The position numbers and the translations under genes were made by a program. Under the pieces are notes generated by a model. The model had not been told where the DNA came from. It worked only from the letters and a program-made list of their open reading frames with translations, and did no database searches. Positions 7,012 through 56,665 of a DNA stretch of 64,000 bases are shown piece after piece (position 1 is the first letter of the stretch; each line of letters begins with the position of its first letter). Source of the stretch: Xanthostigma xanthostigma. Its lineage: Eukaryota > Arthropoda > Insecta > Raphidioptera > Raphidiidae. The DNA lies in the NCBI GenBank assembly GCA_963575645.1, contig OY754476.1, positions 992,001 to 1,056,000 of the forward strand. Reading direction: 5' to 3'.

Positions 7012-7645
7012 ATTACACGCTTTATATTAGTTTCACTTGTAAGTTTGTATGTATGTATGTTTGTTTGTAACCTCGTTTGGACTACAGCAAGTGGTTTATT
7101 ACTGTTAGTATGTTATGCCACTACTGTAAGAGCAATCGTTGACCGAGCGGTCTAAGGCGCTAGTCTTCGCTGACGTCAACTCTCGGATTCACCGGTCGTG
7201 GGTTCTAATCCCGTCCACGCCGAAATAAAAAATTTGTTTTTTTCGACAAATTTTTGACAATAAATTTAACTAAAAAGTGGAAAATAAACATAGTTTAAAA
7301 AAACTAAAAAACACGCTTTACATCAAACTAAAAAGTGAAAATTAAATATAGTTTAAAAAAACCTAAAAAACACGCTTTATATCGAACTAAAAAGTAAAAA
7401 ATATTTTTTTTTAAATAAGCTTAAAACAGTAATGAATAAAAATACTAGTATTATTGTGAAAAAAGCATGGGGTGCTTTGTTCCACATTTTCGTACATCGA
7501 GCGCCCCACGCTTTTTTCACAATAATACTAGTATTTTTTATTCATTAATGTTTTAAGCTTATTTTAAAAAAAATATTTTTTACTTTATAGTTCGATATAA
7601 AGCGTGCTTTTTAGTTTTTTTAAAACTATATTTTTTTATATATTA
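7012..7645. mobile_element. Foldback element with long hairpin (copy 1), carrying a tRNA-Leu-like block
   Basis: It opens with ACACGCTTTATATTAGTTT and ends with a run containing ATATAAAGCGTGC and TTTTTAAAACTATAT. The right half (about 7330-7640) folds on itself with arms of roughly 150 bp around a loop containing TTTGTTCCACATTTTCG. The loop sequence is the reverse complement of that in copy 2. The left half carries a tRNA-like block (7133-7225). Confidence 0.72.
7133..7225 (+). pseudogene. tRNA-Leu-like pseudogene / SINE-type promoter block
   Basis: GACCGAGCGGTCTAAGGCGC matches the D-arm/box A of eukaryotic tRNA-Leu, and GTGGGTTCTAATCCCG is a one-base variant of box B (GGTTCGAATCC). The spacing allows a long variable arm, as in Leu/Ser tRNAs. 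The acceptor ends do not pair, so it is not a functional tRNA gene. Confidence 0.6.
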
Positions 7646-8558
7646 GTATTGATTATGAGAAAACTGAAGGTTGGAAAAAGAGAGGATGGAGGGAGTAAGA
7701 GGGGACAGGGAGAGAGAGAGAGAGAGATAGAACGCATCAAAGGAGGTTTTGTCTGTACCACTATATTTATATTATATACTTATTACCTTCGCTGGCTGAC
7801 AATGATAAGGAAAAACTAGTAAAGGGCATTTCATAATATAAAAAGTCATACATGGAAATATTGAAGTAAGTGAACCGATGTAAACTTTTGGCTTTTTGTA
7901 GATGATACAATGATAACATAATACAATATTCAGTCCAGTCCATAAAGTAAAAGACTAATAAAAGACGTGGCAAGATGGTCAGACAATAATACAGGGTCGA
8001 ACTGTTTTAAAAAAGTGTAACACAAAACATCTTTCCCTGCAGAGCAAACTTATTTTTTGACAGAAGCGGTGCGAGGAAACTCGTTCTTTCGCAAAATTAT
8101 TGAAAATGTTTCACGCCATCTTATTTAGAACCAAAATTAGTCTAAATTATCTCTTCAAATTACGTTCTTTAGGTACAAAAATTCGTAAAACAATGTATTT
8201 TTTTTTACTTCCAATGTTTTGAGAATCTTGCTACACAAAATTGAATATTTGTAATTTTGTAGAGTTTATACAAAACCGTCTAAAATCGAAGACTTTGGTG
8301 CTTAAAGAATGAATTAAAGTGTGTTTTCTTATTTCCATGTGTATGTATTTGACGTATTCTCCATACTCTGTATGCATTTTAAGGACAAAATAAAATTAAT
8401 GAATGAATGAATGAATGAAAATTACAAATCATTTTTTAAGTTTATATTTAATTTTTCTTTTCTGAGGCACGTGACCTGTTCAGGGCTTATGCTTCTCTTC
8501 GAAACTGTAAAATGTGCCAAAAATGTTCGCTTCTATTTTGTGATAAAGGTGAAATAAA
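7646..8558. repeat. No gene; two simple repeats
   Basis: A GA-dinucleotide run at about 7709-7729 and a GAAT/AATG run at about 8397-8418. Otherwise featureless. Confidence 0.5.
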
Positions 8559-8885
8559 TTCAAATCTTTGATTAACGTCTGAATAGAACTCTTCAAATAA
8601 ATAAAATTGTCAACCAATTTTTTTCAGACCATATATTGACAAAAATTATATAAAAATATAAATCAAAATAACAAAAATCATTAATTTTTTTTATTCATTC
8701 AAACATTCAATTATCGTGCATTCTATTAGATAATATTAAATAACTACTAATATTTTTTATATTTTTCTGAAGAAGAACCAAATCCGGATCGAAACGTCAT
8801 CCTTTGTTATTTTGATTTATATTTTTATATAATTTTTGTCAATATATGGTCTGAAAAAAATTGGTCGACAATTTTATTTATTTGA
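8559..8885. mobile_element. Penelope-derived hairpin element, ORF-less
   Basis: Inverted arms TTTGATTAACGTCTGA and ACCAATTTTTTTCAGACC, with the reverse complement at the right end. It is flanked by a 14-bp duplication, AAAGGTGAAATAAA (8545-8558 and 8886-8899). It contains CTGAAGAAGAACC...GATCGAAACG, the hammerhead-like core. Same terminal sequences as the full-length element at 49303-52098, but no ORF. Confidence 0.82.
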
Positions 8886-8972
8886 AAAGGTGAAATAAAC
8901 ATAGATGCCAATCTCTGTCTTTTTCTATATTGGTTACTTTCAACGCGAACAACTTGGTTTAAGTTTTCTATA

Positions 8973-16544: not shown

Positions 16545-17148
16545 TCTATACTAATATAGAAAGCTGAAGAGTTTGTGTATTTGTTTGAACGCGCTAATCT
16601 CAGGAACTTATACTGGTTCGAATTGGAATTTTTTTTTGTTGGATAGCCCATTTATCGAGGAAGGCTATAGGCTATATACTATCACTCTACGACCATTAGG
16701 AGCGGAGCATTAATAAAAAATGTTGCAAAATCTATCTCAAAAATAAGCTTCTATTCAGGTAAAATGTACTAACTAAATATACTCATATTAGCGTTGTGAG
16801 TAAACAACCCCGGCTGGCTCAATCGGTAGAGCATGCGACTGTCAATATCAGGGTCGTGGGTTCGAGCCCCACGTTGGACGAATATATTTTTATTTTCTAC
16901 ATTTCTTTCTTCTAAGGCTTACATTTAAATTTATTTAAATTTTATTTAATTAATTAAAAAAAAATTATTAGTTAAAAAAAGTATAAATACTGCTTTTTGT
17001 CGACAAAAACTTTTGAACGGTAACTCCCATCATCATGACATTTGGACACTACAATCATTTCGGTAAACTAAGATGAATGTGTGTACTCATGTTCCTCCCT
17101 TTCCCATTCGTTCTTTTCCACCCGGGTGAAACCGGACGGGACCGCTAG
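16545..17148 (+). mobile_element. Non-autonomous Helitron, family A, copy 3
   Basis: Starts TCTATACTAATATAGAAAGC after A and ends ACCGCTAG before T. It has the same subterminal hairpin and a tRNA-Lys-like module at 16808-16880. Confidence 0.85.
16808..16880 (+). pseudogene. tRNA-Lys-derived module inside Helitron A copy 3
   Basis: The copy closest to tRNA-Lys at the 5' side: CCCCGGCTGGCTCAATCGG, then GGGTTCGAGCCCCACG and GTTGGACG. The anticodon loop is again CTGTCAA. Confidence 0.8.
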
Positions 17149-17510
17149 TATTACATAAATTTTAAACGGAGACCATACTTAGGGACGTTTATACATTACG
17201 AATTATTTAAAACGTGATTTGTGGTTGTACATTCACCATTCAAAAAAAGAATTACGATAAGAAAAAAAATAAAAAATAAATTAAAAGTCAAGTACATAGT
17301 ACGCAAGATGCCGCGATAAGTGTTTTACAGTCATTGGTTCCAGTAATTGCCTAGATAGGAATTTTCATTAAAATTATATTAAAATCGTGGACACGTGAAT
17401 CAAATAATACACGGCATTTTTTATTATCTAAAGCTTGTACCGGGTGTATTTTTTTTTTGATTATTGAGCTCTTTAAGTCCTTTGAAAAAAACTAGAGAAT
17501 AACATTTTTA

Positions 17511-17626
17511 AATTGTTGATTAACGTCTGATTAGAACTCTTCAATAAATAAAATTATCGACCAATTTTTATACTTTTTGTTAATATATTTGTCTGAAAAA
17601 TTGGTCGAAAATTTTATTCATTGAAA
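17511..17626. mobile_element. Penelope-derived mini-hairpin, ORF-less
   Basis: 116 bp consisting of little more than the two outermost inverted arms (TTGATTAACGTCTGATTAG ... AATTGGTCG). Flanked by a 10-bp duplication, AACATTTTTA (17501-17510 and 17627-17636). Confidence 0.75.
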
Positions 17627-17636
17627 AACATTTTTA

Positions 17637-26330: not shown

Positions 26331-27699
26331 TTTTAATTATCTAATATTAACCTATGTCTCTACTTTTTATATTTAAAAACAATTAAATTTAAACCTCGAT
26401 TATCTGTATATCAAATAGCGTCCGGGAATGTATTTTATTTACTATACTGAAACAAATATTTGCAAATCAACTTTGTTCAGAAACAAGAATATATATTAAT
26501 TGTAAAAGTTTTCTGACAACGTAAATACTGCTTTGGATTATTTTATGACCCGAACTGTACCTTCGCGTGAAAAGAGTCTAGCGCCAGTACTATTAACAAT
26601 ATTTTTTCATTTCTACCAGGAGTATAGCAGTCATAATTTATTTCTTTAATGGCGAAATACTGTACGTTTATATAATAACAAACAGTTGAAAAATGGTTGC
26701 TCATTTTGAATTATGGTGAAAAATGTTTACTTCGTGTAATAAAGTTTAAACCTGAAACGATGAAATTTTTACTGGTGCGCTCTGTGCAAGAATTGTCTTT
26801 AATTTATAAATACACCTAAAAATTAACCAGCTTGAGTCATTAACAGTTACAGAATATTATTTCATTAATCATAGCGCATGGAGTGCACAGGCCAAGTTCT
26901 TTTCGATCCCCATCTATCTCTGTCACAGAACTGATTTTTTAAGGGGGGTTGTGATTCATAAAGAAGCAGTATATCCAAATTTCACACGTCTAGGTGGAAT
27001 AGTTTCCAAGATACGAGTGTTCAAAAATCACGATCTAGGCCCTAAGGCATTCACAAACTAACTGAAGTAGCTCACTTTGAGCGCTTCTGCAACCTCCATC
27101 TTAAAGCAAAATTGTCGACCCTGAACTGCGGCTTAAGGCTATCGGTGTTGGAGCTAGGGCTGAGGATTAGGGCTGGGAGGCTAAAAGTTAAGGGCTAGCA
27201 GGTTGCAGTTTGCAGACCAGTCAAGTTTACTCTTGGGTGGATATCTCGCTTGAGCGAAAAAATATAATAAACCACTCAAAAGAAATTTCCCTCTGTCTCT
27301 ATAATATTGATCAATTACTTAAAATTTAAGTTGCGGTGGTGCAAATAAGCATTATTATTCTTGCGAATTTAGATAAGGTTCGGGGAAAATAAAAAAGTTT
27401 CACAACATTATTCGGCACAATTAGACCTTCGATGGGATAGACTGTATGAAATAAACAACTTCCTTCCGATTGGAAAATTCAATAAACCATTAACTAATCC
27501 CATTGAATGATAAAGTTTAGGGACACGCACACAGCGCACATATCGGTACTCTGAAACTTTGCTGTATATTGACTGATGAAAGCTGTTTAACCCTTCTAAG
27601 ACCAGAAGCTTTCAAAAAACATTATCATTTAGAATACTTCAATTAATGTAAACATACTGTAAAGTCCACCAGTATTCATCATGTGAATTATAAACAAAA
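26331..27699. other. No gene seen
   Basis: Follows the hAT transposase relic. 27050-27240 is more GC-rich (GGGCTGAGGATTAGGGCTGG) but has no ORF of note. Confidence 0.45.
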
Positions 27700-28263
27700 C
27701 TAGTGTGACCTGTGCGAATTATTCGCACAAAATAAGTATAATAATTATCACTTTACAAAATGATTTTTTAAATATGATTGCAGGTATTCAATTCGTTTCT
27801 AATTTTGCACACTGCTTATAACGTTCTTCTTTTTGTTGTATTACAATATGAAGCTCAGATGACAGATCGAAGAAATATTTTACTAAAATTGTCATATAGA
27901 GACGCAAGTATAGCAAAAGCGTAGAGCTAAGCCGTCAGATGGCATCATGCAGCATTGCTGTGACCTTGTTCAGCGTTGCTCGCTGTTTCAAAATTAAAGC
28001 CGTCAGATGGCAGTTATGCAGTATTGTGTCTGTTGTATTACAATATGAAGGTCAGATGACAGATCGAAGCGTTGACGTTGTTTCAAAATTAAAGCCGTCA
28101 GATGGCAGACGTTGTTCAGCGTTGCTGTATTTTAATTAATTTACAAAAACAAAAGCAATAATAAATTTTTTAGTTGTCGATGTAAGTAGAGCACGCAATT
28201 ATCTGTAAAATGATATATAATTTATGTGGGAAATTGTGAGGTTTTTTCTAAAAAGGGAGGCAA
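27700..28263 (-). mobile_element. Non-autonomous Helitron, family B, copy 4 (5' truncated)
   Basis: The CTAG end and hairpin are at 27700 onward. The copy stops after AAAAAGGGAGGCAAAT, short of the TC start, so it is 5' truncated. It faces copy 5 in opposite orientation about 420 bp away. Confidence 0.82.
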
Positions 28264-28686
28264 ATCTACAAATAAAATATTATTTGATGATCTAAAAAAA
28301 GATTTATAAAAGTCTTAAATTTTAATAACAAAATTTAATACTTAAAAACCTTAACTAACATCTTAAGGAAGTTATTAACTTGATGGAAATGTGTTAACTA
28401 TTGCTGTTTTGTATATAATATTGATTAATTTAAACTAAATACATTCATAAATAATTTCTATTTGCCTTATTGCAGTTCTGATGCAAGCATGTTATGCTCC
28501 AATTACGGCGTTGAATATATTTTTACTTATTTTCGTGTAACTGTGTTTATAGGAGGGTAACGGGAAAGGTGTAATGTATTTAAAAACATTCTTCTCAATT
28601 TTATAGACTCCCTACACACCCCACATATACGTATGTACGACTGCATTAATCAGTACGTAGTTAAATATTAAGTAATTTCAATAAAA
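28264..28686. other. No gene; spacer between inverted Helitron B copies 4 and 5
   Basis: 420 bp of AT-rich spacer. No ORF or repeat recognised. Confidence 0.5.
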
Positions 28687-29283
28687 TCATATATATTAAT
28701 ACGCTAAGGTTTAAGATGTTTGTCTCCCTTTTTAGAAAAAACCTCACAATTTCTCCACATAAATTATATATCATTTTACAGATAATTGCCTGCTCTACTG
28801 ACATCGACAACTAAAAAATTTATTATTGCTTTTGTTTTTGTAAATTAATTAAAATACAACAACGCTGAACAACGTCTGCTATCTGACGGCTTTAATTTTG
28901 CAACAACGTCAACACTTCGATCTGTCATCTGACCTTCATATTGTCATACAACAGACACAATACTGCATACTGCCATCTGACGGCTTTAATTTTGAAACAG
29001 CGAGCAACGCTGAACAACGTCACAGCAATGCTGCATGATGCCATCTGACGGCTTAGCTCAACGCTTTTGCTATACTTGCGCCTCTATATGACAATTTTAG
29101 TAAAATATTTCTTCGATCTGTCATCTGACCTTCATATTGTAATACAACAAAAAGAAGAACGTTATAAGCAGTGTGCAAAATTAGAAACGAATTGAATACC
29201 TGCAATCATATTTAAAAAATCATTTTGTAAAGTGATAATTATTATACTTATTTAGTGCGAATAATTCGCACAGGTCACTCTAG
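28687..29283 (+). mobile_element. Non-autonomous Helitron, family B, copy 5
   Basis: 597 bp, TC start after A, CTAG end before T, subterminal hairpin intact. It forms an inverted pair with copy 4. Confidence 0.85.
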
Positions 29284-30116
29284 TAAACAATATTATTCTA
29301 ATGCAAAGAAAAGTCTTCTGACAAAATATATTTGGTTGCCGAGGCTGGCTCGATTTTACAATTAATGGTTTGAATCCAGAATTGAAGCAGAATTTTCTTA
29401 GCTTTTCCAAGTTGTTTTACATGTTTTTTTTTCCTAGCGACAAAAAGAAAGCTCGCATGGAAAAATGAAGTTTAGAGGCAACATTTTTTTTAAGGAAAGA
29501 ATAAACTATAATGATGCTATTTTTCAATAAAATTCACACATAAATATTAGTAGAAAAACAGCAAAGCGAGTCGTTCTTAAATGCTCAGATAAATGTGTAT
29601 TACTGTATTGCAGTCATAGATGTGTCATTGATTGTCATGTTGGCCAACGGATCCGATTTGAGAATTTCATGAACAAGAGAACTCCATTACTGTGCTGAAC
29701 AAATGATATTATTTCACCAGGTGAGAAATGTTGGAATTAGGCGACACACGGGTAAGTGCTGGGAATGACGCTAGTACAGGTTTGTCAAACCTAGTGTCTC
29801 ATCAGGATCTCAATTTGAAAGGTAAAACTATTTAAAAAAAACCTGATTAGCTGTAGACCGATTTTCTGCTTTTATATTTCACACTTTTTAGTTTTTTTAA
29901 GTTTTATATATTTAATATTAATTTAAAAAAAAATTAAATACAATGGTTTGCCGTATTTATCCATAGAAATCTACTTCGAGGGACTTTAATTTTCTTGTTA
30001 CTTGTATGAGAAGCCCAGCTGCATATCCGATTTGATGGACTAGGGGAAGTACCCTAAAGGAGTGAGTGAGTGACAATGAACTTTGCGTATTAACAAAATC
30101 GTAAGTAGCACGGCTA
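29284..30116. other. No gene seen
   Basis: AT-rich, nothing recognised. Confidence 0.5.
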
Positions 30117-36789: not shown

Positions 36790-37526
36790 CAGGGATGAGG
36801 CACATAAAGTGTTACAGAGCAAATTATAGCACTCAAACTATTAATCATATCCAAAAATGTTTCAGACAAAAGTTTTAGTGTTCGAGAACGTCGTCATACT
36901 GCATCACCCTATTTTTTTATCGGTAAAGGTGCTGAAGCTACGTCAAGGTCAACTTCACTTTTTTAAACGAAACCATGTATTTTTTTTCGATGACATTATT
37001 AGCGATTTTAAGACGAATTCAGCAACCTAAAACACAAGGTCATTCAAATTATTTTATTTTTATTTATTTAAAAAAAATTCAAAATTTTTATGTTTAGAAT
37101 ATTCTGTTCAATATTCAGAATATTCAAAATAGTCACGTATGTACCGAAATTACACCACAAATGTCATCATTTCGATCATCTTCCATAGGTAGACCCAAGC
37201 AAAGCTTAGTGGATCCTTTAAAAGTGAATATTCCGATATGTTCAGATTTTTCGACTACGATTTTGCGTGATTAGAATGACCTTGTATTGTAGGTTGCTGA
37301 ATTCGTCTTAAAATCACTAATAATGTCATCGAAAAAAAAAATACATGGTTTCGTTTAAAAAAGTGAAGTTGACCTTGACGTAGCTTCAGCGCCTCCACCG
37401 ATAAAAAAATAGGGTGGTCCAGTATGACGGCCTTCTCGAATACTAAAACTTTTGTCTGAAACATTTTTGGATATGATCAATAGTTTGAGTGCTATTGCTC
37501 TGTAACACTTTATGTGCCTCACCCTG
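36790..37526. mobile_element. 737-bp foldback element with ~260-bp arms
   Basis: Arms 36790-37047 and 37262-37526 are inverted copies: CAGGGATGAGGCACATAAAG versus CTTTATGTGCCTCACCCTG, with inner GATTTTAAGACGAATTCAGC and its inverse. Flanked by TA, so probably Tc1/mariner-mobilised. It lies two bases after the target TA of the mariner relic. The minus-strand ORF at 37255-37464 is an artefact of the arm. Confidence 0.85.
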
Positions 37527-40060: not shown

Positions 40061-40264
40061 TTGGTGGTTTATCCAGCTCTGGTTATAATTAGAAAAAGGG
40101 GCGGCTGTTTTTAATCGTGCAACAAACAAAAAAATCAACATCGACTATACAAATTTAAAGAACACTGAACAATAAGTTGTAAACAATTTATAAGTAGATG
40201 CTTTATATTAGATAGTTAGAGATTATCAATCAATAGTAAAAAACCTACATTAAGGTTTACTTTT

Positions 40265-40674
40265 CAAATCTTTGATTAACGTCTGATTGGAATTCTTCAA
40301 TAAATAAAATTATCCATCAATTTTTCAGACAAATATATTAACAAAAAATAATAATTAATACATAAACGTTTCGGTCCGGATTTGGATCTTCTTCAAAACT
40401 GATCTAAAAAATATAAAAATTGATTAACAATTAGTTTCTAATTGGTTTTTGAAAAAAAATTCGCTTTAAGTTTTGAATTACCAAAATTGAAAAAAAAAAT
40501 AAAGCGAAATTTTTTTTTTTCAAATACCAATTAGAAACTAATTATTAATCAATTTTTATATTTTTTAGATCAGTTTTGAAGAAGATCCAAATCCGGACCG
40601 AAACGTTAATGTATTAATTATTATTTTTTGTTAATATATTTGTCTGAAAAATTGGTCGATAAGTTTATTTATAG
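40265..40674. mobile_element. Penelope-derived hairpin element, ORF-less, full arms
   Basis: The two arms of the Penelope-like terminal repeat lie head to head around a loop of about 20 bp near 40465. Both arms carry the hammerhead-like core (GAAGATCCAAATCC with GAAACGTTAATG). Flanked by a 13-bp duplication with one mismatch: AAGGTTTACTTTT (40252-40264) and AAGGTTCACTTTT (40675-40687). Confidence 0.83.
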
Positions 40675-40687
40675 AAGGTTCACTTTT

Positions 40688-41830: not shown

Positions 41831-41841
41831 ATAATCATATT

Positions 41842-42027
41842 CAAATCTTTGATTAACGTTTGATTAGAACTCTTCAATAAATAAAATTATCGACCAATTT
41901 TTCAGACAATAGGTATATTAACAAAAAATATATAATTAATACATTAACGTTTCGATCCGGATTTAATTAATGTACATTTTTTGTTAATATATTGCCTGAA
42001 AAATTGGTCGATAATTTTGTTTATTGA
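41842..42027. mobile_element. Penelope-derived hairpin element, ORF-less, short
   Basis: 186 bp with inverted arms CAAATCTTTGATTAACG ... ATAATTTTGTTTATTGA. Flanked by an 11-bp duplication, ATAATCATATT (41831-41841 and 42028-42038). A partial core (ACGTTTCGATCCGGATTT) remains. Confidence 0.82.
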
Positions 42028-42038
42028 ATAATCATATT

Positions 42039-43825: not shown

Positions 43826-43828
43826 TTA

Positions 43829-45286
43829 TAGTATAAGAGCCAGTAGCCGGTTATCGGTATGTATTTGACCAGACCTGAATTTTTACACAGTGAATCTCCT
43901 ATACCTACCATACATGGTAGGCACTAAGCCCAGCGTGGCCGCCGCGGCCCGTACTCAGGTGCGACAGGTACAAAATTTGACTAATTTTCATAGTATTTGA
44001 CCACGTCTGCCATTTGGAAATCTAATAATATATTATTATTGTTATTGTAAAATAACAATGGCAGACCATTATCGCGCGTCAAACATCGTGGCAGACATTT
44101 TTTTAGGTACATACTAAAAAATATGAAATTTTGAAAGGTATACTTTTCATCATGGATTATTATTCTATTTATTATTTCAAGCAAGTTTCGTTAAAGAAAA
44201 TTTTTTCTAAACTTTATAGTTCCGAAATATTTAGAAAATTAAAAAAAAATCAGCTGCTCCTTTGTTTTGTAGATCTGTCAGAATTAAACTAGTTAAGCAT
44301 GCTTTAATTAATTTTTACATGACGTAGAACATATTATGTAGGTAGGTGACCAAGGCGACGAATAGCAAATATCATACTGAATACTAGCCATTACCCGCTT
44401 CACCTCACGCGATATCAAAAATGTTATTTTCTTTATTTTACTGTATCAAATGTCAATATTTTTGGAATGGTCCCGTCGCCCCATTGGTTGTAATTTTTTA
44501 TTTGTTCCAAAACAAAATTAAAAAATGTCAAGTGAACATAAAAAATTATTTATGCCTATAGGTACCTATAAACAATATTTTTATTTTCACTTGACACTTT
44601 TTAATTTTGTTTTGGAACAAATAAAAAATTCCAACCAATTGGACGACGGGACCATTCCAACTTCAAAAATATTGACATTTGATACAGTAAAATAAAGAAA
44701 ATAACATTTCTGATATCGCGTGAGGTGACGCGGGTAATGGCTAGTATTCAATATGATATTTGCTATTCGTCGCCTTGGTCACCTACCTACATAATATGTT
44801 CCACGTCTTGTAAAAATTAATCAAAGCATGCTTAACTAGTTTATTTCTGACAGATCTGCAAAACAAAAGAGCAGCTGATTTTTTTTAATTTTCTAAATAT
44901 TTCCGGAATTATAAAGTTTAGAAAAAAATTTTTTTAACGAAACTTGCTTGAAATAATAAATAGAATAATAATCCGTGATGAAAAGTACACCTTTCAAAAT
45001 TTCTTATTTTTTACTACCTAAAAAATTGTCTGCCACGATGTTTGGCGCGCGATAATGGTCTGCCATTGTTATTTTTCAATAACAATAATAATATATTATT
45101 AAATTTCCAAATGGCAGACGTGGTCAAATACTTTGAAAATTATTCAAATTTTGTACCTGTCGCACCTGAGTACGGGCCGCGGCGGCCACGCTAGGCCTTA
45201 GTGAGTATAGGTATAGGAGACTCACTGTGTAAAAATTCAGGTCTTGTCAAATACATACTGGTAGCCGGCTACTGGCTCTTATACTA
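43829..45286. mobile_element. Giant palindrome (1458 bp), arms ~700 bp
   Basis: Starts TAGTATAAGAGCCAGTAGCC and ends with its inverse GGCTACTGGCTCTTATACTA. The arms remain alignable to the centre (about 44562), where TGTCAAGTGAA and TTCACTTGACA face each other across about 50 bp. TTA on both sides (43826-43828, 45287-45289) may be a 3-bp target duplication. The arms contain GCGGCCGCGG-type GC-rich blocks and a Helitron-like CTAGCCATTACCCGC segment also found singly at 12335-12720. ORFs inside are arm artefacts. Confidence 0.88.
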
Positions 45287-45647
45287 TTATGCTTCTATAG
45301 CCTTTTTCGGGTGCTTTCCTATTTTTTATAGAGGAAGGGGCGTAACTATGTTATCCGAGATCGGGCGCAAACGCTTAGTTACGGCATGAACGTCCAATTT
45401 AATACGAATTTCGATTCTATATAAATTATTATCAAATAAACCAGTTTCAAATTTATATGAAAATAAAATTTAAAAATACATGAAACTATTAGTGTTTTAT
45501 AAAATGAATTTCACTGATAATTATGTATATAGGTATTATTTAAAAAAAAAAAACTTCTGAGCACGATTTAGCATAATATTAATCGTCAAAGTATGTAATA
45601 TTAGGGGGGTGTTCTAGTCCAGAATTTTGAAAAAATATCATTATGTG

Positions 45648-46392: not shown

Positions 46393-46477
46393 CCACAACC
46401 CTGATTACGACTTCCGACGACGCCAATGAGTACGGTATACACAGAAAATCATTAACTGTAGAAAATTACAAAGAAAA

Positions 46478-46483
46478 ACTTAC
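46478..46483 (-). other. PlexA: Splice donor of PlexA coding exon 1
   Basis: The minus strand reads ACG|GTAAGT, a near-consensus 5' splice site, exactly where the plexin homology stops. Reading past it gives five non-homologous residues and then a stop. Phase 0. Confidence 0.9.
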
Positions 46484-47641
46484 CGTTAATATGCAGGGAT
46501 GACTGGGCGATATAAAATCCAGACCACGATCTCCACTGCCGGCAAAGCACCGCTTAATGTTCTGCATGAACTTCCTTCTGATAGCTTTCAACGAATATAC
46601 GCACAATGCCGATTGATCAGACGGCTTGTGGGCATGAGTCGGATCACTTTCACTAAACACAGCAAATAACACATCGTCTTGAGCGGTGATGCCTAAATTC
46701 GACGCCAGATCAGAGCCGGCTTTACCGACGTACGCCGCCTGCACCAGATTATACTTTTTCCCGTCACTTGTACAATCAATAGGTATTTCCGTGTACGAAT
46801 AATAGTTCTCATCTTCGTGACACACACGCACCAGCTTGCTGATATAGACATTAGAACCGGTATGTTTCAGTTGCGTAGTCAAAAAGTAACTGAACGCTTC
46901 AGAACTGAAACCGTAAACGTAGTTGATAGGATAACGTTCGCGCGCCAAAGAATTCACAAACATTCTAGTGCCGGTTGTGACAGCCGTTTGGGCTATCGTG
47001 AACATTTTGTCTTTATCAAGACTACGACTGCTCACTGCTGGAACTTCCGAACGGTACGGCGAATTCGAAGTAAAAGTCACGCCAACATACATAACCTGCG
47101 AGACAGGCGGATTTGGCGGACCTGGGGCTATAAAAGCAACAGTCGATGCCGTCGCATTATTCGTTACAACTGCCTCGCGCACTTCCTGTATCACGTCGGA
47201 TATGTTGTGCAGATTGCGTACCGAACATATTCCCTGAAAGAGTGTTCCGCACGATATTAGTCTAGTCGTCGTATAGTCGATAACGAGGGCTTTGTTTACA
47301 TTGTCGGTTGGTCTTTTAACGGCAGAAGTTGGACAATCAAGTACAGAGCACTCAATTGAGTCATCTCTTGGTCCAGTGTCCACGGACACAACTTGTTCGA
47401 GATCGGGTGATAATTGAAACAGACGATTAACGGCGCCGATGTACACGCGACCCGTGTTTTTGTCGACGACCAGATGATTAAAGCGTTCAGCGCCGGATGA
47501 CGTCGAGGACGATGTCGCTGTCGCGCCGTCGAATGTTCGCACCACGTCGCCCGATGTCGCTCCCAAATATGGTAACACAGTTACTGCGGCCAACAGCGCC
47601 ATGGCTGGCCACAAACCTTCAGTTCGCATAGTTCTTCTCAT
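46484..47641 (-). CDS. PlexA: Plexin A, first coding exon (signal peptide and most of Sema domain)
   Basis: Plexin A is a single-pass membrane receptor for class 1 semaphorins that steers axons and reshapes the cytoskeleton; its extracellular Sema domain binds the ligand. The 386-codon exon starts with a hydrophobic signal peptide (about residues 10-29, core PAMALLAAVTVLPYLGA). The Sema domain runs from about residue 48 (RFNHLVVDKNTGRVYIGAVN) to the end, with plexin hallmarks TDNVNKAL, FQGICSVRNL, TASTVAFIAPGPP, YVYGFSSE, SYTEIPIDC, RRKFMQNIKRCF and GLDFISPSHPC. From memory this is clearly closer to insect PlexA than PlexB. An in-frame TAG three codons upstream (47650-47648) limits the start to this ATG or the in-frame ATG four codons on. 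The exon ends after ACG at a strong GTAAGT donor in phase 0. The rest of the Sema domain, the PSI/IPT repeats, the membrane segment and the GAP domain must lie in exons at lower coordinates or outside the window; I could not find them. Confidence 0.95.
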
Positions 47642-47700
47642 GTCCGGCTACTGCTTAGGTGAGCCGGAAATCTGCGACCCGTCACGTCATATAGAGATCT
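47642..47700 (-). promoter_or_regulatory. PlexA: PlexA 5' UTR segment with candidate splice acceptor
   Basis: Upstream of the start codon the minus strand has an in-frame TAG at 47650-47648 and, further up, TTATTTTCCAG with the AG at 47700-47699. This pyrimidine-rich sequence suggests that the coding exon begins at 47698 with about 57 bases of 5' UTR joined to one or more non-coding exons further upstream (higher coordinates). This is inferred from the sequence only. Confidence 0.45.
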
Positions 47701-47935: not shown

Positions 47936-49396
47936 GTTTTTTATAATATTTTGACATATGCTAATTTGTGTCTCAAGAAGCCAAGAATCAACAATTTTCA
48001 ACTTTAATAGCACTGCTTGTGTTGTTAGATGCGTCCATATGTCTGTTTATATTTTGATAATACAGGCATATGTTCGTATCTTACATCACGGGCAGTCCAT
48101 TAACACAACGCAACTTTTTGAAGCGCTGACTTCTCTACAATTTTGGACTTCGGGTGAAAAGTCACATTGTTATTGTAAATTCGATGTTATATGTTACCTG
48201 TTTTTTTATAATATTTCAAGAAATGTTAATTTATTTCTCAAGAAACCAAGAATCACCAATTTTCAACTTTAATTTAATTACACTATTTGTGGTCTTATGG
48301 ACATTCATGTGTGTGTTTATATTTTGATAATACAGGCACTTGAGTGTCCGTTACATCACGGGTAGTTCTATGAACACAACGCAACATTTTAAAGCGCTGA
48401 CTTCTCTACAATTTTCTACTTCCGGTGAAAAAAGTCACATTGTTATTGTAAGTTCCATGTTAAATATTTTTTATAATATTTCAAGAAATGTTAATTTATG
48501 TCTCAAGAAACCAAGAATCACCAATTTTCAACTTTAATAGCACTGCTTGTGTTGTCAGGTGCGTCCATATGTCTGTTCATATTTTGATAATACAGGCATA
48601 TGTTCGTATCTTACATCACGGGCAGTCCATTCAACACAACGCAACTTTTTGAAGCGCTGACTTCTCTACAATTTTGGACTTCGGGTGATAAAAGTCACAT
48701 TGTTATTGTAAGTTCCATGTTATATGTTACTGTTTTTTTATAATATTTCAAGAAATGTTTATGTCTCAAGAAACCAAGAATCACCAATTTTCAACTGTAA
48801 TAGCACTGCTTGTGTTGTCAGGTGCGTCCATATGTCTGTTTATATTTTGATAATACAGACATATGTTCGTATCTTACATCACGGGCAGTCCATTCAACAT
48901 AACGCAACTTTTTGAAGCGCTGACTTTTCTACAATCTTGGACTTCTGGTGATAAAAGTCACATTGTTATTGTAAAGTCCATGTTATATGTTACTGTTTTT
49001 TTTTTATAATATTTCAAAAAATGTTAATTTGTGTCCCAAGAAGCCAAGAATTACAATTTTCAACTTCAATTGCACTGCTTGTGTCGTAAGGGTACGTCCA
49101 TATGTCTGTTTATATTTTGATAATACAGGCATATGTTCGTATCTTACATCACGGGCAGTCCATTCAACATAACGCAACTTTTTGAAGCGCTGACTTCTCT
49201 ACAATTTTGGACTTCGGGTGAAAAAAGTCACATTGTTATTGTAAATTCCATGTTATATGTTACTGTTTTTTTTTTATAATATTTCAAAAAATGTTAATTT
49301 GTCAAATCTTTGATTAACGTCTGATTAGAACTCTTCAATAAATAAAATTATCGACCAATTTTTCAGACAATATATTAACAAACAATATAAAATTAA

Positions 49397-49434
49397 TACA
49401 TTAACGTTTCAATCCGGATTTGGACCTTCTTCAG
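49397..49434 (-). ncRNA. Hammerhead-ribozyme-like core in left arm of Penelope element
   Basis: Inverted copy of the motif at 52000-52037, with TCTTCAG at 49428-49434 on the plus strand. The same structural strengths and weaknesses apply. Confidence 0.38.
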
Positions 49435-49629
49435 AATTGATCTAAAAAATATAAAAATAATTAATAATTAAATATAATTCGCTTTTTTATAGATTTTTTC
49501 AAAATTAATTATGATTATCAAAATAATGAAAAAATAATAACAAACAATTTTTTTTTTTTTATTAAGTAGTCATGGAAATAATAATTTGTGAGTACCTAAA
49601 AAAGAAAGAAAAATTATTAAAAACAAAAA

Positions 49630-51855
49630 TTATTTCAATATAATATTATATATATTACTTAAATTTTCTGTATCTAATTGAGCATTGAGAGAATTTTTAT
49701 TTGATTTTATATGTAACATTTCCGAAATATTTCTTTTAAAAAAATTAGTTTCATTATCTAAAATTTTAATATTATTCCAATTAATTTTGTGGTCAAGTTC
49801 TAATTTGTGTTTAGTTATTACATTGTGTTTGTCAGGCATTAATTTGTGATTATTTTGATGCTCTTTTATTCTTGTTTTAAGAGCTCTTTTAGTTTGACCA
49901 ATATAATTCTTAGCACAATTTTCACAATTAATTTTATATACAACATTATGCTTTTGAAATTTATTAATTTTATCTTTTCCCTTTTTAATAATTTTATCAA
50001 GTTTATTATTAACATTAAAAACAGTTTTTATATTTAAATTTTTAAGAAATGAACTAAATTTTATTGAAATATTTTTGAAAAAAGGAATTACTATAAAAGG
50101 ACAATCAACATTATTAACATTGTTTTGTGAATTATGACTTTTTGTTAATTTATTAATTCTAATTTTGATAAATTTATTTATAAATTTGAGAGGATAAGAA
50201 TTGGCAAGTAGAATTTGACGAACTAAATTAAAATTATTTAAGTGAAATTTTGGTTTAGATAATAAAATAGATTTATCAATAAGATTATAAACCATAGCTA
50301 TCTTTTGATTTATTGGATGATTAGAATAAAAATTTAAAACTCTACCAGAACTAGTTGGTTTATTAAACCAGTTAAATTCAACATTACCGTTATTATTAAT
50401 AATTAGTGTATCTAGAAAACTAATTTGATTATTATTTTCTATTTCATGAGTGAATTTAATTTTAGGGTGAAAATTATTAAATATACAAATCATATAGTTT
50501 ATTTTATCTTTAGGAATAATGCAAAAAATATCGTCAACATATCTGTGATAAATAATAGGTAGAAAATTAAGATTACCAAAACATTGTTTTTCTAAATCTC
50601 TCATAACAAATTCAGCAAAAATTGGAGACAAAGGAGAACCCATAGGAGTACCATCAATTTGTTGATAGCATTTATTATCAAATAAAAAATATGTGGAATT
50701 TAAAATTAAATTGATGGCTATAGTTAATTCATTCCACGGAATGTTACAATGTGGACTTATAATATTCCAACGCGATTTAATACTGTTAATAATAAGTTCA
50801 TTTGGTATATTAGTAAATAATGATGTAACGTCGAGTGATATCATGATATGATCTTTTGGAATAATGACATTTTTGATTTTATTAATAAATTCATAGGAAT
50901 TTATTACAGAATGGTTAGTTTCTTGTAAACCGTTAGATAAAATTTTATGTAAAAAAGCAGCTAAGTGATGTAGAGGACTACCAATGGATGACACAATCAT
51001 TCTGTAAGGAACATCTTTTTTATGTATTTTTGGTAAAGCATAAGCGCGTGCTAAATTGGCTGAAGTTATAAATAACTTTTTAAAATCAATGTTATCAATA
51101 TATTCATTAGATATCCATCTTTTAAGTAATGTTTTTTGTTTATCAATAATATTATTAATAGGATTTCTTTTAGTTAGTAAATAAGTATTTTTATCTAATA
51201 ACATTTCATTAACTTTTTCTAAATAAGTAGTCCAATTAACTGCTACAGTTACATTTCCTTTATCAGCTTTAGTAAATAATATATCAGAATTATTTTTAAT
51301 AAAATTTTGAGTAAAGTTAATATTACGTTCAATTTGTTTTTCAATAAAGCTTTTATGTATTATCTTTTTTTGTTTCTTTGATTGTTCAATTATAAAATCA
51401 ACAGTCTTATGTCTAATTTCGTTATGTAATGTTATTGGAATTTTATAAAGACTTGATTCAACACATTTGATAAATTCAATTTGAGCATTTTTATCTAAAA
51501 TATCACGTTTTAAGCTAAATTTACCTCCAAGAGATACTATATCAACAACTTCATTAGGTATAATTTTATCAGAGAGATTAACAAACCACTTTTTTCTAAA
51601 ATCAACATAATTATCATAATAACCATTTTTTTCTTTATATAATGAATCTAATTTTTTAATTTTATTATTTTGAATTTTATCATAAAATTTATTGAGTTTA
51701 ATTTGCTGTGTGTGATAAAATTTACAATAAACATCATGTGGCAGTGTACTTTCAATAACGAATTCTAAATTCATTAATTTCTTTTTTAAAAAATTGATTT
51801 TAAAATGTAAATCTTTAATTTCTAGATTTAATAAATTAATTTGTAATTTTGACAA
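49630..51855 (-). CDS. Penelope-like reverse transcriptase with C-terminal GIY-YIG endonuclease
   Basis: A 741-residue ORF with no internal stop. It should copy the element RNA into DNA and nick the target. The N-terminal 190 residues are lysine/asparagine-rich, probably coiled and basic. RT motifs follow: TKADKGNVTV (about 195-204), YALPKIHK with PYRMIVSSIGSP (about 272-294), SLDVTSLFTNIP (about 340-351), DGTPMGSPLSPIFAEF (about 401-416) and the catalytic YVDD (about 439-442), then ISFLDTLI. The tail holds a GIY-YIG nuclease: VVYKINCENCAKNYIGQT (about 638-655), followed by R-x3-R and EH; the Cys pair fits the zinc-binding element seen in this family. Length and domain order match canonical EN+ Penelope-like elements. 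Codon use is extremely AT-rich, unlike the PlexA exon. All expected catalytic residues that I can identify are present, so the protein may be functional. Confidence 0.92.
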   Translation of the reverse strand: MSKLQINLLNLEIKDLHFKINFLKKKLMNLEFVIESTLPHDVYCKFYHTQQIKLNKFYDKIQNNKIKKLDSLYKEKNGYYDNYVDFRKKWFVNLSDKIIPNEVVDIVSLGGKFSLKRDILDKNAQIEFIKCVESSLYKIPITLHNEIRHKTVDFIIEQSKKQKKIIHKSFIEKQIERNINFTQNFIKNNSDILFTKADKGNVTVAVNWTTYLEKVNEMLLDKNTYLLTKRNPINNIIDKQKTLLKRWISNEYIDNIDFKKLFITSANLARAYALPKIHKKDVPYRMIVSSIGSPLHHLAAFLHKILSNGLQETNHSVINSYEFINKIKNVIIPKDHIMISLDVTSLFTNIPNELIINSIKSRWNIISPHCNIPWNELTIAINLILNSTYFLFDNKCYQQIDGTPMGSPLSPIFAEFVMRDLEKQCFGNLNFLPIIYHRYVDDIFCIIPKDKINYMICIFNNFHPKIKFTHEIENNNQISFLDTLIINNNGNVEFNWFNKPTSSGRVLNFYSNHPINQKIAMVYNLIDKSILLSKPKFHLNNFNLVRQILLANSYPLKFINKFIKIRINKLTKSHNSQNNVNNVDCPFIVIPFFKNISIKFSSFLKNLNIKTVFNVNNKLDKIIKKGKDKINKFQKHNVVYKINCENCAKNYIGQTKRALKTRIKEHQNNHKLMPDKHNVITKHKLELDHKINWNNIKILDNETNFFKRNISEMLHIKSNKNSLNAQLDTENLSNIYNIILK

Positions 51856-51999
51856 TTATTATTTCCATGACTACTTAATAAAAAAATTGTTTGTTATTAT
51901 TTTTTCATTATTTTGATAATCATAATTAATTTTGAAAAAATCTATAAAAAAGCGAATTATATTTAATTATTAATTATTTTTATATTTTTTAGATCAATT

Positions 52000-52037
52000 C
52001 TGAAGAAGGTCCAAATCCGGATTGAAACGTTAATGTA
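52000..52037 (+). ncRNA. Hammerhead-ribozyme-like core in right arm of Penelope element
   Basis: Order of elements: CTGAAGA (52000-52006), an extra A, stem II GGTCC/GGATT around AAATCC, GAAA (52024-52027), then a mini stem III (ACG/TGT, loop TTAA) and A as the cleavage-site base. This is the type I hammerhead order. Hammerhead motifs are known in the terminal repeats of Penelope-like elements. Against it: the extra A after CTGAAGA, weak wobble pairs in stem II, and a poor stem I. Confidence 0.4.
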
Positions 52038-54997
52038 TTAATTTTATATTGTTTGTTAATATATTGTCTGAAAAATTGGTCGATAATTTTATTTATTGAA
52101 ATGTTAATTTGTGTCCCAAGAAGCCAAGAATTACAATTTTCAACTTCAATTGCACTGCTTGTGTCGTAAGGGTACGTCCATATGTCTGTTTATATTTTGA
52201 TAATACAGGCATATGTTCGTATCTTACATCACGGGCAGTCCATTCAACATAACGCAACTTTTTGAAGCGCTGACTTCTCTACAATTTTGGACTTCGGGTG
52301 AAAAAAGTCACATTGTTATTGTAAATTCCATGTTATATGTTACTGTTTTTTTTTTATAATATTTCAAAAAATGTTAATTTGTGTCCCAAGAAACCAAGAA
52401 TCACCAATTTTCAACTTCAATAGCACTGCTTGTGTTGTCAGGTGCGTCCATATGTCCGTTTATATTTTGATAATACAGGCATATGTTCGTATCTTACATC
52501 ACGGGCAGTCCATTAACACAACGCAACTTTTTGAAGCGCTGACTTCTCTACAATTTTGGACTTCGGGTGAAAAAAGTCACATTGTTATTTTAAGTTTCAT
52601 ATGTTACATGATTTTTATAATATTTCAAGAAATGTTAATTTATGTCTCAAGAAACCAAGAATCACCAATTTTCAACTTTAATAGCACTGCTTGTGTTGTC
52701 AGGTGCGTCCATATGTCTGTTCATATTTTGATAATACAGGCATATGTTCGTATCTTACATCACGGGCAGTCCATTCAACACAACGCAACTTTTTGAAGCG
52801 CTGACTTCTCTACAATTTTGGACTTCGGGTGATAAAAGTCACATTGTTATTGTAAGTTCCATGTTATATGTTACTGTTTTTTTATAATATTTCAAGAAAT
52901 GTTTATGTCTCAAGAAACCAAGAATCACCAATTTTCAACTGTAATAGCACTGCTTGTGTTGTCAGGTGCGTCCATATGTCTGTTTATATTTTGATAATAC
53001 AGACATATGTTCGTATCTTACATCACGGGCAGTCCATTCAACATAACGCAACTTTTTGAAGCGCTGACTTTTCTACAATCTTGGACTTCTGGTGATAAAA
53101 GTCACATTGTTATTGTAAATTCCATGTTATATGTTACTGTTTTTTTTTTATAATATTTCAAAAAATGTTAATTTGTGTCCCAAGAAGCCAAGAATTACAA
53201 TTTTCAACTTCAATTGCACTGCTTGTGTCGTAAGGGTACGTCCATATGTCTGTTTATATTTTGATAATACAGGCATATGTTCGTATCTTACATCACGGGC
53301 AGTCCATTCAACATAACGCAACTTTTTGAAGCGCTGACTTCTCTACAATTTTGGACTTCGGGTGAAAAAAGTCACATTGTTATTGTAAATTCCATGTTAT
53401 ATGTTACTGTTTTTTTTTATAATATTTCAAAAAATGTTAATTTGTGTCCCAAGAAGCCAAGAATTACAATTTTCAACTTCAATTGCACTGCTTGTGTCGT
53501 AAGGGTACGTCCATATGTCTGTTTATATTTTGATAATACAGGCATATGTTCGTATCTTACATCACGGGCAGTCCATTCAACATAACGCAACTTTTTGAAG
53601 CGCTGACTTCTCTACAATTTTGGACTTCGGGTGAAAAAAGTCACATTGTTATTGTAAATTCCATGTTATATGTTACTGTTTTTTTTTATAATATTTCAAA
53701 AAATGTTAATTTGTGTCCCAAGAAACCAAGAATCACCAATTTTCAACTTCAATAGCACTGCTTGTGTTGTCAGGTGCGTCCATATGTCCGTTTATATTTT
53801 GATAATACAGGCATATGTTCGTATCTTACATCACGGGCAGTCCATTAACACAACGCAACTTTTTGAAGCGCTGACTTCTCTACAATTTTGGACTTCGGGT
53901 GAAAAAAGTCACATTGTTATTGTAAATTCCATGTTATATGTTACTGTTTTTTTTTTTATAATATTTCAAAAAATGTTAATTTGTGTCCCAAGAAACCAAG
54001 AATCACCAATTTTCAACTTCAATAGCACTGCTTGTGTTGTCAGGTGCGTCCATATGTCCGTTTATATTTTGATAATACAGGCATATGTTCGTATCTTACA
54101 TCACGGGCAGTCCATTAACACAACGCAACTTTTTGAAGCGCTGACTTCTCTACAATTTTGGACTTCGGGTGAAAAAAGTCACATTGTTATTTTAAGTTTC
54201 ATATGTTACATGATTTTTATAATATTTCAAGAAATGTTAATTTATGTCTCAAGAAACCAAGAATCACCAATTTTCAACTTTAATTACACTGTTTGTGGTC
54301 TTATGGACATTCATGTGTGTGTTTATATTTTGATAATACAGGCACTTGAGTGTCCGTTACATCACGGGTAGTCCTATAAACACAACGCAACATTTTAAAG
54401 CGCTGACTTCTCTACAATTTTGAACTTTCGGTGAAAAAAGTCACATTGTTATTGTAAGTTCCATATGTTTTTATAATGTTTCAAGAAATTGTAATTTGTA
54501 TCTCAAGACGCCAAGAATCAACAATTTTCAACTTCAATTGCACTGCTTGTGTCGTAAGGGTAGGTCCATATGTCTGTTTATATTTTGATAATACAGGCAT
54601 ATGAGCTTATCTTACATCACGGGCAGTCCATTAACACAACGCAACTTTTTGAAGTGCTGACTTCTCTACAATCTTGGACTTCCGGTGATAAAAGCCACAT
54701 TGTTTTTGTAAGTTCCATGTTACATGTTTTTAATAATATTTCAAGAAATGGTACTTTGTATCTCAAGAAGCCAAGAATCAACAATTTTCAACTTCAATTG
54801 CACTGCTTGTGTCGTAAGGGTAGGTCCATATGTCTGTTTATATTTTGATAATACAGGCATATGAGCTTATCTTACATCACGGGCAGTCCATTAACACAAC
54901 GCAACTTTTTGAAGCGCTGACTTCTCTACAATTTTGGACTTCTGGTGATAAAAGTCACATTGTTATTGTAAGTTCGATGTTATATGTTACTGTTTTT

Positions 54998-55457
54998 AAA
55001 CGCTTTATATTTTTATACGCTTTATATTAGTTTGGGTTGTAAATATGTATGTCCGTAACGGAATCTTTGAGCATAATTTTCACCAATTTCCCGAAGTCTG
55101 ATTAATTTGAAACTTTGCATACGTATCAAGGACCGATGACAATGCAATAATTTGATAACAGTTTCCCATTATCCTTATTAGGACCCCCAGGATTAATAAA
55201 TTCTTTTATAGATCCTCAAACTAAAAAGTGAAAAATAAAATATAGTTTAAAAAAAACTAAAAAACACGCTTTATATCGCACTAAAAAGTAAAAAATAATT
55301 GTTTTAAAATAAGCTTAAAAAGCGTTGGGCGCTCGATGTACGAAAATGTGGAACAAAGCGCCCCACGCTTTTTAAGCTTATTTTAAAACAATTATTTTTT
55401 ACTTTTTAGTGCGATATAAAGCGTGTTTTTTAGTTTTTTTTAAACTATATTTTTTTT
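54998..55457. mobile_element. Foldback element with long hairpin, inserted in tandem array (copy 2)
   Basis: It interrupts an array unit within the run TACTGTTTTT. It begins AAACGCTTTATA and ends near TTTAAACTATATT. The right half is a near-perfect hairpin (about 55230-55450) with arms containing CACGCTTTATATCGCACTA and AAAATAAGCTTAAAAAGCG. The loop contains CTCGATGTACGAAAATGTGG. Copy 1 is at about 7012-7645. No ORF; probably mobilised by another element's enzyme. Confidence 0.75.
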
Positions 55458-56665
55458 ATCATATTTCAAAAAATGTTAATTTATGTCTCAAGAAACCAAG
55501 AATCACCAATTTTCAACTTTAATAACACTGCTTGTGTTGTCAGGTGCGTCCATATGTCTGTTTATATTTTGATAATACAGGCATATGTTCGTATCTTACA
55601 TCACGGGCAGTCCATTCAACACAACGCAACTTTTTGAAGCGCTGACTTCTCTACAATCTTGGACTTCCGGTGATAAAAGCCACATTGTTTTTGTAAGTTC
55701 CATGTTACTTGTTTTTTATAATATTTCAAGAAATGTTAATTTGTGTCTCAAGAAACCAATCACCAATTTTCAACTTTAATTGTACTGTTTGTGGTCTTAT
55801 GGACATTCATGTGTGTGTTTATATTTTGATAATACAGGCACTTGAGTGTCCGTTACATCACGGTAGTCAATTATCACAACGCAACATGTTGAAGCGCTAA
55901 ATTCTCTACAATATTGGACTTCCGGTGATAAAAGCCACATTGTTTTTGTAAGTTCCATGTTACTTGTTTTTTATAATATTTCAAGAAATGTTAATTTGTG
56001 TCTCAAGAAACCAATCACCAATTTTCAACTTTAATTGTACTGTTTGTGGTCTTATGGACATTCATGTGTGTGTTTATATTTTGATAATACAGGCACTTGA
56101 GTGTCCGTTACATCACGGTAGTCAATTATCACAACGCAACATGTTGAAGCGCTAAATTCTCTACAATATTGGACTTCCGGTGATAAAAGCCACATTGTTT
56201 TTGTAAGTTCCATGTTACTTGTTTTTTATAATATTTCAAGAAATGTTAATTTGTGTCTCAAGAAACCAATCACCAATTTTCAACTTTAATTGTACTGTTT
56301 GTGGTCTTATGGACATTCATGTGTGTGTTTATATTTTGATAATACAGGCACTTGAGTGTCCGTTACATCACGGGCAGTACATTCAACACAACGCAACATA
56401 TTGAAGCGCTGACTTCTCTACAATCTTGGACTTCTGGTGATAAAAGTCATATTGTTATTGTAAGTGGTCAAATGGGCATTCATGTGTGTGTTTATATTTT
56501 GATAATACACGCACTTGAGTGTCCGTTACATCACGGACAGTCCATTCAACACAACTCTACATATTGAAGCGCTGACTGTTGGTGATCAAAATCACAGTTT
56601 ATGTGTAAATTTCATGTGTCTTATTTTTTTATATTTCGAGAAATGTAAGTTTGTACCTTTTGAAT

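Follow-up and report, generated by a model that had tools for sequence, protein, structure and literature searches.

Short ORF-less hairpins as probable abortive insertions of a Penelope-like element primed from both target ends

How does a reverse-transcribed Penelope-like element come to lie in a genome as short hairpins that carry no ORF? The question is raised by a 64,000-nucleotide stretch of DNA (the window), in which four such hairpins stand alongside an ORF-bearing copy of the element (Table 1). We read the window copies, searched the window's own assembly (623 Mb in 28 contigs, with the window at C13:992001-1056000) for related copies, and compared the ends, flanks and junctions of 62 insertions.

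Hairpins and ORF-bearing copy in the window

The initial annotation described four ORF-less elements made of the arms of a full-length Penelope-like element. All four hairpins (116 to 410 bp) are present, and because the two arms of each abut, with a gap of -5 to +1 nt when mapped on natural copies, they hold pLTR sequence only; the ORF-bearing copy, however, is itself 5'-truncated, and for hairpin 8559-8885 the best match in mapping is a sister subfamily (reference L039). A mechanical inverted-repeat search of the window recovered the arms of three hairpins, 8589-8675/8803-8889 (98% complementary), 40295-40459/40513-40677 (96%) and 41861-41911/41990-42040 (86%), together with those of the ORF-bearing copy, 49329-49557/51877-52105 (99%); the arms of hairpin 17511-17626, absent from the 25 inverted-repeat pairs listed, were read directly and mapped. 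All four hairpins have the two kinds of end seen in the ORF-bearing copy, and these are unequal, only one of them carrying a tail of ~33 nt (...AATCAAAGATTTG). The two cDNAs measure ~199 nt (tailed) and ~169 nt (tail-less) in hairpin 40265-40674, and ~26 nt (tailed, excluding the tail itself) and ~56 nt (tail-less) in hairpin 17511-17626. Each hairpin is flanked, as the annotation had stated, by a direct duplication of its own, which was read and scored for all four and measures 10-16 bp. No empty site was found for hairpin 40265-40674 in the genome search, its joined flanks matching only themselves; when 72 joined-flank queries were compared with the sampled loci, uninterrupted paralogues of 72-90% identity were obtained for L104, L115, and L010, all hairpins from elsewhere in the genome.

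Elsewhere in the window, further long inverted repeats (92-96% complementary) are located at 43828-45287, 27680-29303, 36826-37495, 7344-7633, and 55224-55466; an open frame at 46466-47647 (-) matches the semaphorin (Sema) domain and is probably a host exon, which gives the genome the look of an animal's, and a tRNA-like Rfam match lies at 16808-16880 (+), with 33.3 bits versus a gathering score of 29.

The ORF of the long copy runs from right to left, which places the 3' end of the element on the left; the ~33-nt tail is found there, and the right end has none. Copy 49303-52098 is a 5'-truncated head-to-head copy with a frame of 741 aa (up to 837 aa in other copies), and its tail-less half differs from the tailed half at 0 of 247 positions. 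It sits in a tandem satellite array of ~250-270 bp units (window 47937-56463), the other units of which act as empty sites. The reverse transcriptase domain of a GIY-YIG Penelope-like element is present in its protein: residues 324-449 match NCBIfam TIGR04416 (group II RT/maturase) with E=3.6e-9 and 36.2 bits, the whole-protein cut-off being 300, and the ORF has a YVDD box. The C-terminal fragment matches GIY-YIG PF01541 with E=4.3e-4 and 21.0 bits, under the cut-off of 22.6. A Pfam search with the whole protein gave neither a reverse transcriptase nor a GIY-YIG match, and a PDB sequence search gave only weak reverse transcriptase matches (best E=0.084), with nothing of interest in a second search.

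A minimal hammerhead-like motif of the form CTGANGAN-stem II-GAAACGT is contained in the pLTR, with G-C, A-U or G-U at pair 2 of stem II in different copies. The commonest of 58 distinct motif copies (GATCC/GGACC, 11 copies) is mismatched at this pair, as are many others, and no Rfam hammerhead match was obtained in the window or for the arm motif.

Table 1. Positions of the hairpins, the ORF-bearing copy and their parts in the window
Feature	Position	Strand	Description
Duplications of hairpin 8559-8885	8545-8558 / 8886-8899		AAAGGTGAAATAAA, 14 bp, exact
ORF-less hairpin 8559-8885	8545-8899 with duplications	-	Sister subfamily; tailed end left
Duplications of hairpin 17511-17626	17501-17510 / 17627-17636		AACATTTTTA
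ORF-less hairpin 17511-17626	17501-17636 with duplications	-	Tailed end left
Target duplication, left copy	40252-40264		AAGGTTTACTTTT vs AAGGTTCACTTTT, 1 mismatch, AAGGTT(T/C)ACTTTT
ORF-less hairpin	40265-40674	-	Tailed pLTR half left (element 3' end left), tail-less half right
Minimal hammerhead-like motif in arm of hairpin 40265-40674	40576-40611	+	TTGAAGAAGATCCAAATCCGGACCGAAACGTTAATG, read directly
Target duplication, right copy	40675-40687		AAGGTT(T/C)ACTTTT, 1 mismatch to left copy
Duplications of hairpin 41842-42027	41831-41841 / 42028-42038		ATAATCATATT
ORF-less hairpin 41842-42027	41831-42038 with duplications	-	Tailed end left
Target duplication of ORF copy, left	49289-49302		AAATGTTAATTTGT
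Tail of ORF copy	49303-49335	-	Present at left end only
Long tailed half of ORF copy	49303-51857	-	pLTR + ORF, 5' side truncated; L032 = R259-2806 of natural copy L033
ORF, 741 codons open	49630-51855	-	Reverse transcriptase + C-terminal GIY-YIG-like endonuclease; profile matches below cut-off
Short tail-less half of ORF copy ("inverted arm")	51854-52098	+	Opposite orientation; L032 = R2530-2775
Minimal hammerhead-like motif in ORF-copy arm	52000-52035	+	Mirror copy 49399-49434 on -
Target duplication of ORF copy, right	52099-52112		AAATGTTAATTTGT; uninterrupted satellite units are empty sites

Unequal ends and target duplications

The insertions compared were drawn from four sets. Set A comprised the loci most similar to hairpin 40265-40674 (80 matches on both strands, best 40 of 2250 candidates scored, 30 loci cut); many of these loci are the two strands of one palindrome, and the hairpin and its own other strand are among the 80 matches. 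Set B held the 30 loci most similar to the ORF (62 matches, best 60 of 3465 candidates scored). Set C consisted of 60 places, taken as they follow one another along C1 and part of C2, among the matches listed (100 of 385 exact to the pLTR motif), with the places from the set A search omitted; it was not selected for structure, but the motif was required. Five window copies, one of them also in set A, completed the sample. Ends were located by aligning a core of 31 nt and a tail of 34 nt, and the tail score was bimodal (≤11 or ≥17). From 78 end pairs, we dropped 15 copies with a hairpin inside another repeat, 1 duplicate, and 1 locus-edge pair, swapped four inner pairs of tandem copies for the outer ends, and added the composite L035/36, yielding 62 insertions: 12 similarity picked (A), 16 ORF picked (B), 30 motif anchored (C), and 4 from the window. 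In set C, both ends fell inside the 551-901 bases examined in 30 of 60 loci, 4 held an embedded hairpin, and 26 were unpaired; the unpaired loci are longer, truncated or decayed, and one of them (L066), missed by the end finder, was two-ended when read. Across the genome, the tail matched with at most one mismatch at 8986 places (control, 0). Exact matches numbered 9203 for core ends and 3451 for core plus tail, from which no tail fraction is derivable, decay being calibrated on only 27 exact cores. The 62 paired copies have inverted pLTRs, the order on which their pairing was based, and direct partial tandem pLTRs occur in L031, L033, L034, L037, and L039; pLTRs that are direct and/or inverted, with a tail of 30-40 nt at some ends, belong to the definition of GIY-YIG Penelope-like elements.

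One tailed and one tail-less end were observed in 56 of the 62 insertions (11/12 in set A, 16/16 in set B, 25/30 in set C, and 4/4 in the window), two tails in 2, and none in 3, and 1 was unclear (P=1.5e-11 versus independent choice per end with p=0.5). Two exceptions, L115 and L083, retain tail remnants next to the flank and look like tailed ends with deletions. A partly independent check of the pairing used head-to-head pairs within 4 kb in C1:0-8.3 Mb among the matches listed (100 per motif search); 18 of these 24 pairs had one exact tail, 5 had none, and 1 had two, and L062, among the five pairs without an exact tail, was one-tailed when read. The two-tail pair L121/L122 probably represents two separate insertions, to judge from one end, where the core has diverged. 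ORF-bearing copies of 1.9-3.6 kb have the same one-tail architecture as the hairpins; the rule is kept in the long head-to-head copies L047-L051 and L055-L058, with duplications of 12-16 bp, and in the tandem copies L031, L033, L034, and L037 when the outer ends are taken. A separate observation is that one hairpin of 384-391 bp, with both ends tail-less and common flanks in 15 copies (L016, L019, L020, L022, L023, L025-L030, L069, L077, L093, and L113), rides inside another multicopy repeat, which amplifies it along with itself.

Checked across genomic copies, as the initial annotation had proposed, direct duplications scored above threshold in 44 of the 56 one-tail insertions (12 were without), versus 2 of 62 in a control with the left flank reversed. 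The threshold was 8.5; swapping flanks among copies gave scores of ≤8.0 in 95% of cases and ≤9.5 in 99%. Duplication lengths range from 9 to 16 bp, with 13 and 14 the commonest. ATT stands directly before the cDNA start at 16 of the 36 tailed ends that begin with CAAA (of 60 tailed ends) and at 12 of the 26 tail-less ends that begin with CAATAAA (of 63 tail-less ends), against a background of 4.7% in the flanks of the same 62 insertions; the 24 tailed and 37 tail-less ends without these exact starts stand outside the ATT scoring. The target is AT-rich and preferentially ATT, as in GIY-YIG Penelope-like elements, and a cut after ATT together with a CAA-initiated cDNA on each strand is the pattern expected if both target ends prime.

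Inverted arms and duplications would also be expected if a foldback or MITE element had moved by DNA transposition, with no part played by reverse transcription. The equal terminal inverted repeats and fixed duplication length that define a MITE are absent here, however: one end has a tail and the other does not, duplication length varies from 9 to 16 bp, arm lengths vary freely, and the arms are the pLTR of a reverse transcriptase/GIY-YIG-like element. A MITE or foldback DNA transposon was rejected on the unequal ends and variable duplications, and we regard such an origin as hardly conceivable.

Self-priming is a second source of head-to-head palindromes: the first cDNA folds back (snap-back) and primes its own complement, and self-priming on an antisense template was put forward by Arkhipova et al. 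in 2013, in the part of that work relevant here (PMC3846280). The head-to-head order of the copies agrees with it, as do two two-tailed hairpins, L008:1466-1920 and the second insertion in L116 (461-824), whose flanks outside the element are inverted rather than direct (22 and ~15 bp), since a first cDNA that folded back and was copied through its tail and on into the primer would end up with two tails and inverted flanks alike. Their inverted-flank scores are 26 and 19, whereas the other 60 of the 62 insertions score ≤9, and the one-tail insertions mostly show the direct duplications given above. Near-equal halves and two tails are predicted by self-priming, but two tails occur in only 2 of 62 insertions; it is largely refuted as the main route, and we consider it quite unlikely to account for the hairpins. 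The two-tailed class as a fold-back route is a lead, the two cases being few.

Half lengths and junctions

Half lengths extend from 14 to 2513 nt, the longer half being tailed in 21 and tail-less in 29 of 50 insertions. The halves lie within 10 nt of perfect abutment at 35 of 50 junctions; the other 15 deviate by more than 10 nt, with up to 262 nt of unassigned sequence. Overlap at the joins is less than simulated (median 1 versus 3). Short copies prevail: summed half lengths are <700 in 40 of 50 insertions; in C1:0-8.3 Mb, 20 of 24 head-to-head pairs with exact end motifs among the matches listed are ≤550 bp apart; and a young subfamily with an exact 35-mer in both arms gave 25 head-to-head pairs 68-2835 bp apart, 17 of them ≤550 bp, among the matches listed (100 of 499). 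Short copies are common, and that they are insertions of a reverse-transcribed Penelope-like element bears out the annotation. Two other close neighbours of the young subfamily stand in the opposite order and are probably neighbouring insertions.

The annotation had further suggested a MITE-like unit, in which a hairpin locus is transcribed and its self-complementary RNA is reverse transcribed and reinserted. ORF-less hairpins are indeed abundant, 3 of 40 match another hairpin in both half lengths within 3 nt, and among the 25 young pairs, from the matches listed, the distances 249 and 512 each occur twice. However, the remaining 37 of 40 hairpins have distinct pairs of half lengths and thereby distinct junctions, the ORF-bearing copies of 1.9-3.6 kb share the same end structure, and the single clearly common junction belongs to the passenger hairpin inside another repeat. 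The suggestion is not supported by this comparison: a self-propagating hairpin was rejected as the main route because junctions are mostly distinct, and we hold this origin to be very unlikely. Even the ~400-bp hairpins similar to 40265-40674 differ in their exact junctions; they look alike because similarity was the criterion for fetching them and because a T-rich run near ~195-213 nt is often where one half ends. The two halves of L050 have 20 private columns in common and 3 differences, indicating a single source for both of its cDNAs; the other young copies resemble one another too closely to show whether this holds for them. The own opposite arm was the closest relative in 8 of 22 copies compared (22 of 32 rows), 7 of them long; in the older hairpins, for which this comparison is uninformative, it does not stand out as the closest.

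Palindromes are unstable, and longer head-to-head insertions might later have lost their palindromic centre in place. The annotation had excluded this on the ground that each hairpin has its own duplications; the hairpins are insertions with duplications of their own, but the argument is invalid alone, since an internal deletion keeps both flanks and duplications, which are thus compatible with shortening. Against such an origin, 17 of the 25 young pairs whose arms both carry the exact 35-mer, among the matches listed (100 of 499), are short already, and a deletion extending to both sides would in most cases have had to end in or close to the pLTR on each, given the preponderance of summed halves <700. 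In-place shortening is therefore an unlikely general explanation, and it is possible for some hairpins. Because junctions are nearly all distinct and the ORF-bearing copies are also one-tailed, the hairpins look like the lower extreme of a size continuum that takes in the ORF-bearing copies.

Two-ended priming and comparison with known systems

From the sequences of the copies, we judge it probable that the hairpins are abortive insertions, left when a GIY-YIG Penelope-like element undergoes two-ended target-primed reverse transcription. The enzyme would cut AT-rich DNA with a stagger of ~13 bp, preferably after ATT on both strands, and reverse transcription would be primed from both target 3' ends at once, inside the pLTR part of the element RNA and close to its 3' side. 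Priming would use two adjacent start sites, the tailed-end cDNA beginning ~33 nt further 3' and the tail-less-end cDNA at the inner site, and each insertion would normally use each start site once. Extending toward the 5' side of the RNA, the two cDNAs would stop at variable points and have their ends joined with at most slight microhomology. Where one cDNA runs far, the product would be an ORF-bearing copy and its "inverted arm"; where neither leaves the pLTR, it would be an ORF-less hairpin. Two-ended priming with a fixed start-site partition explains the main facts. We infer that the two start sites are divided between two enzyme subunits; one RNA may serve both strands, and a protein dimer may enforce the partition. 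Counterpoints are that 6 of 62 insertions are not one-tailed, that 12 of the 56 one-tail insertions lack a duplication above threshold, that 15 of 50 junctions deviate from abutment by more than 10 nt, and that many ends begin without exact CAAA or CAATAAA.

A stronger version, against which we lean slightly, is that Penelope integration is obligately two-ended, with a dimeric enzyme, one RNA, and one start site per target strand, so that every new insertion is a one-tailed palindrome and most die as hairpins. If true, a single step would lie behind the inverted pLTR and the tail, and perhaps behind many of the dispersed minimal hammerheads that animal genomes contain by the thousand. In the sources searched, the route of Penelope integration and the reason for inverted pLTRs and an optional tail are addressed in two ways, by self-priming (2013) and by in vitro two-strand priming (2024); the 8986 tail matches are a natural record able to separate them, and it becomes testable how many RNAs take part and what an enzyme dimer contributes. 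The hairpin copies probably record a previously unclear step of the Penelope life cycle, and short hairpins with hammerhead-like motifs elsewhere become candidates for abortive Penelope insertions rather than separate families.

In L1 twin priming, both target 3' ends likewise prime reverse transcription and inverted joints result, the second primer annealing upstream inside the same RNA, so that the 5' part is inverted and the 3' end is not duplicated. Unlike this, both cDNAs here start in the same ~33-nt region. The annotation knew of no described equivalent, which holds in part. Inverted pLTRs with an optional tail are already published: the cited part of the Adineta vaga Pen2a paper gives an inverted pLTR, with the tail optionally on one, as typical Penelope structure (PMC3846280), and a curation guide, in its relevant passage, names inverted pLTRs and 3' extensions as peculiarities (PMC8969392). 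The present family resembles the canonical GIY-YIG Penelope-like elements described there (Penelope/Poseidon, Pen2a) in its ORF for a reverse transcriptase and a GIY-YIG-like domain, its direct and inverted pLTRs, and its head-to-head order (PMC3846280). In those canonical elements, the tail is 31 bp and optionally on one inverted pLTR, and duplications are 8-10 bp in the cases described (PMC3846280), whereas here short ORF-less copies are common, one tail is found in 56 of 62 insertions, and duplications are 9-16 bp. In the sources searched, as far as their accessible parts go, we found no ORF-less hairpins, no count of one tail per insertion, no two-ended priming as the source of inverted pLTRs, and no two-tail class with inverted flanks, and the portion of a D. 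virilis transposon survey covered (PMC12910113) is silent on the subject; the original Penelope papers, the 2006 survey or Craig et al. 2021 may mention them.

Animal retrozymes with type I hammerheads are likewise short nonautonomous repeats, in genomes that also have Penelope elements, according to the part of the report relevant here (PMC7229834). Theirs are direct tandem repeats (PMC7229834), unlike the single inverted pair with unequal ends seen here, and the direct tandem repeats with a self-cleaving hammerhead that mark retrozymes are absent from the hairpins. Minimal hammerheads have been reported in Penelope elements and retrozymes (PMC7229834, PMC7761336), and thousands of dispersed ones in one of these two papers, as far as the passages cited go; Penelope hairpins with hammerhead-like motifs could supply part of this dispersed population in animal genomes.

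A parallel to the proposed two-ended priming is Poseidon of the lizard Anolis carolinensis, for which two-strand priming in vitro is already published. In the portion of that study cited here, start sites did not differ between strands in vitro, whereas the partition is nearly strict in our copies; the fate of the two cDNAs is not followed, and hairpin copies are not mentioned (PMC11167929). The same study predicts a protein dimer, and the lizard protein behaves alike in that it cuts and extends both strands, prefers ATT, and uses two adjacent internal RNA start sites that delimit the tail; in Poseidon, a hammerhead lies nearby (PMC11167929).
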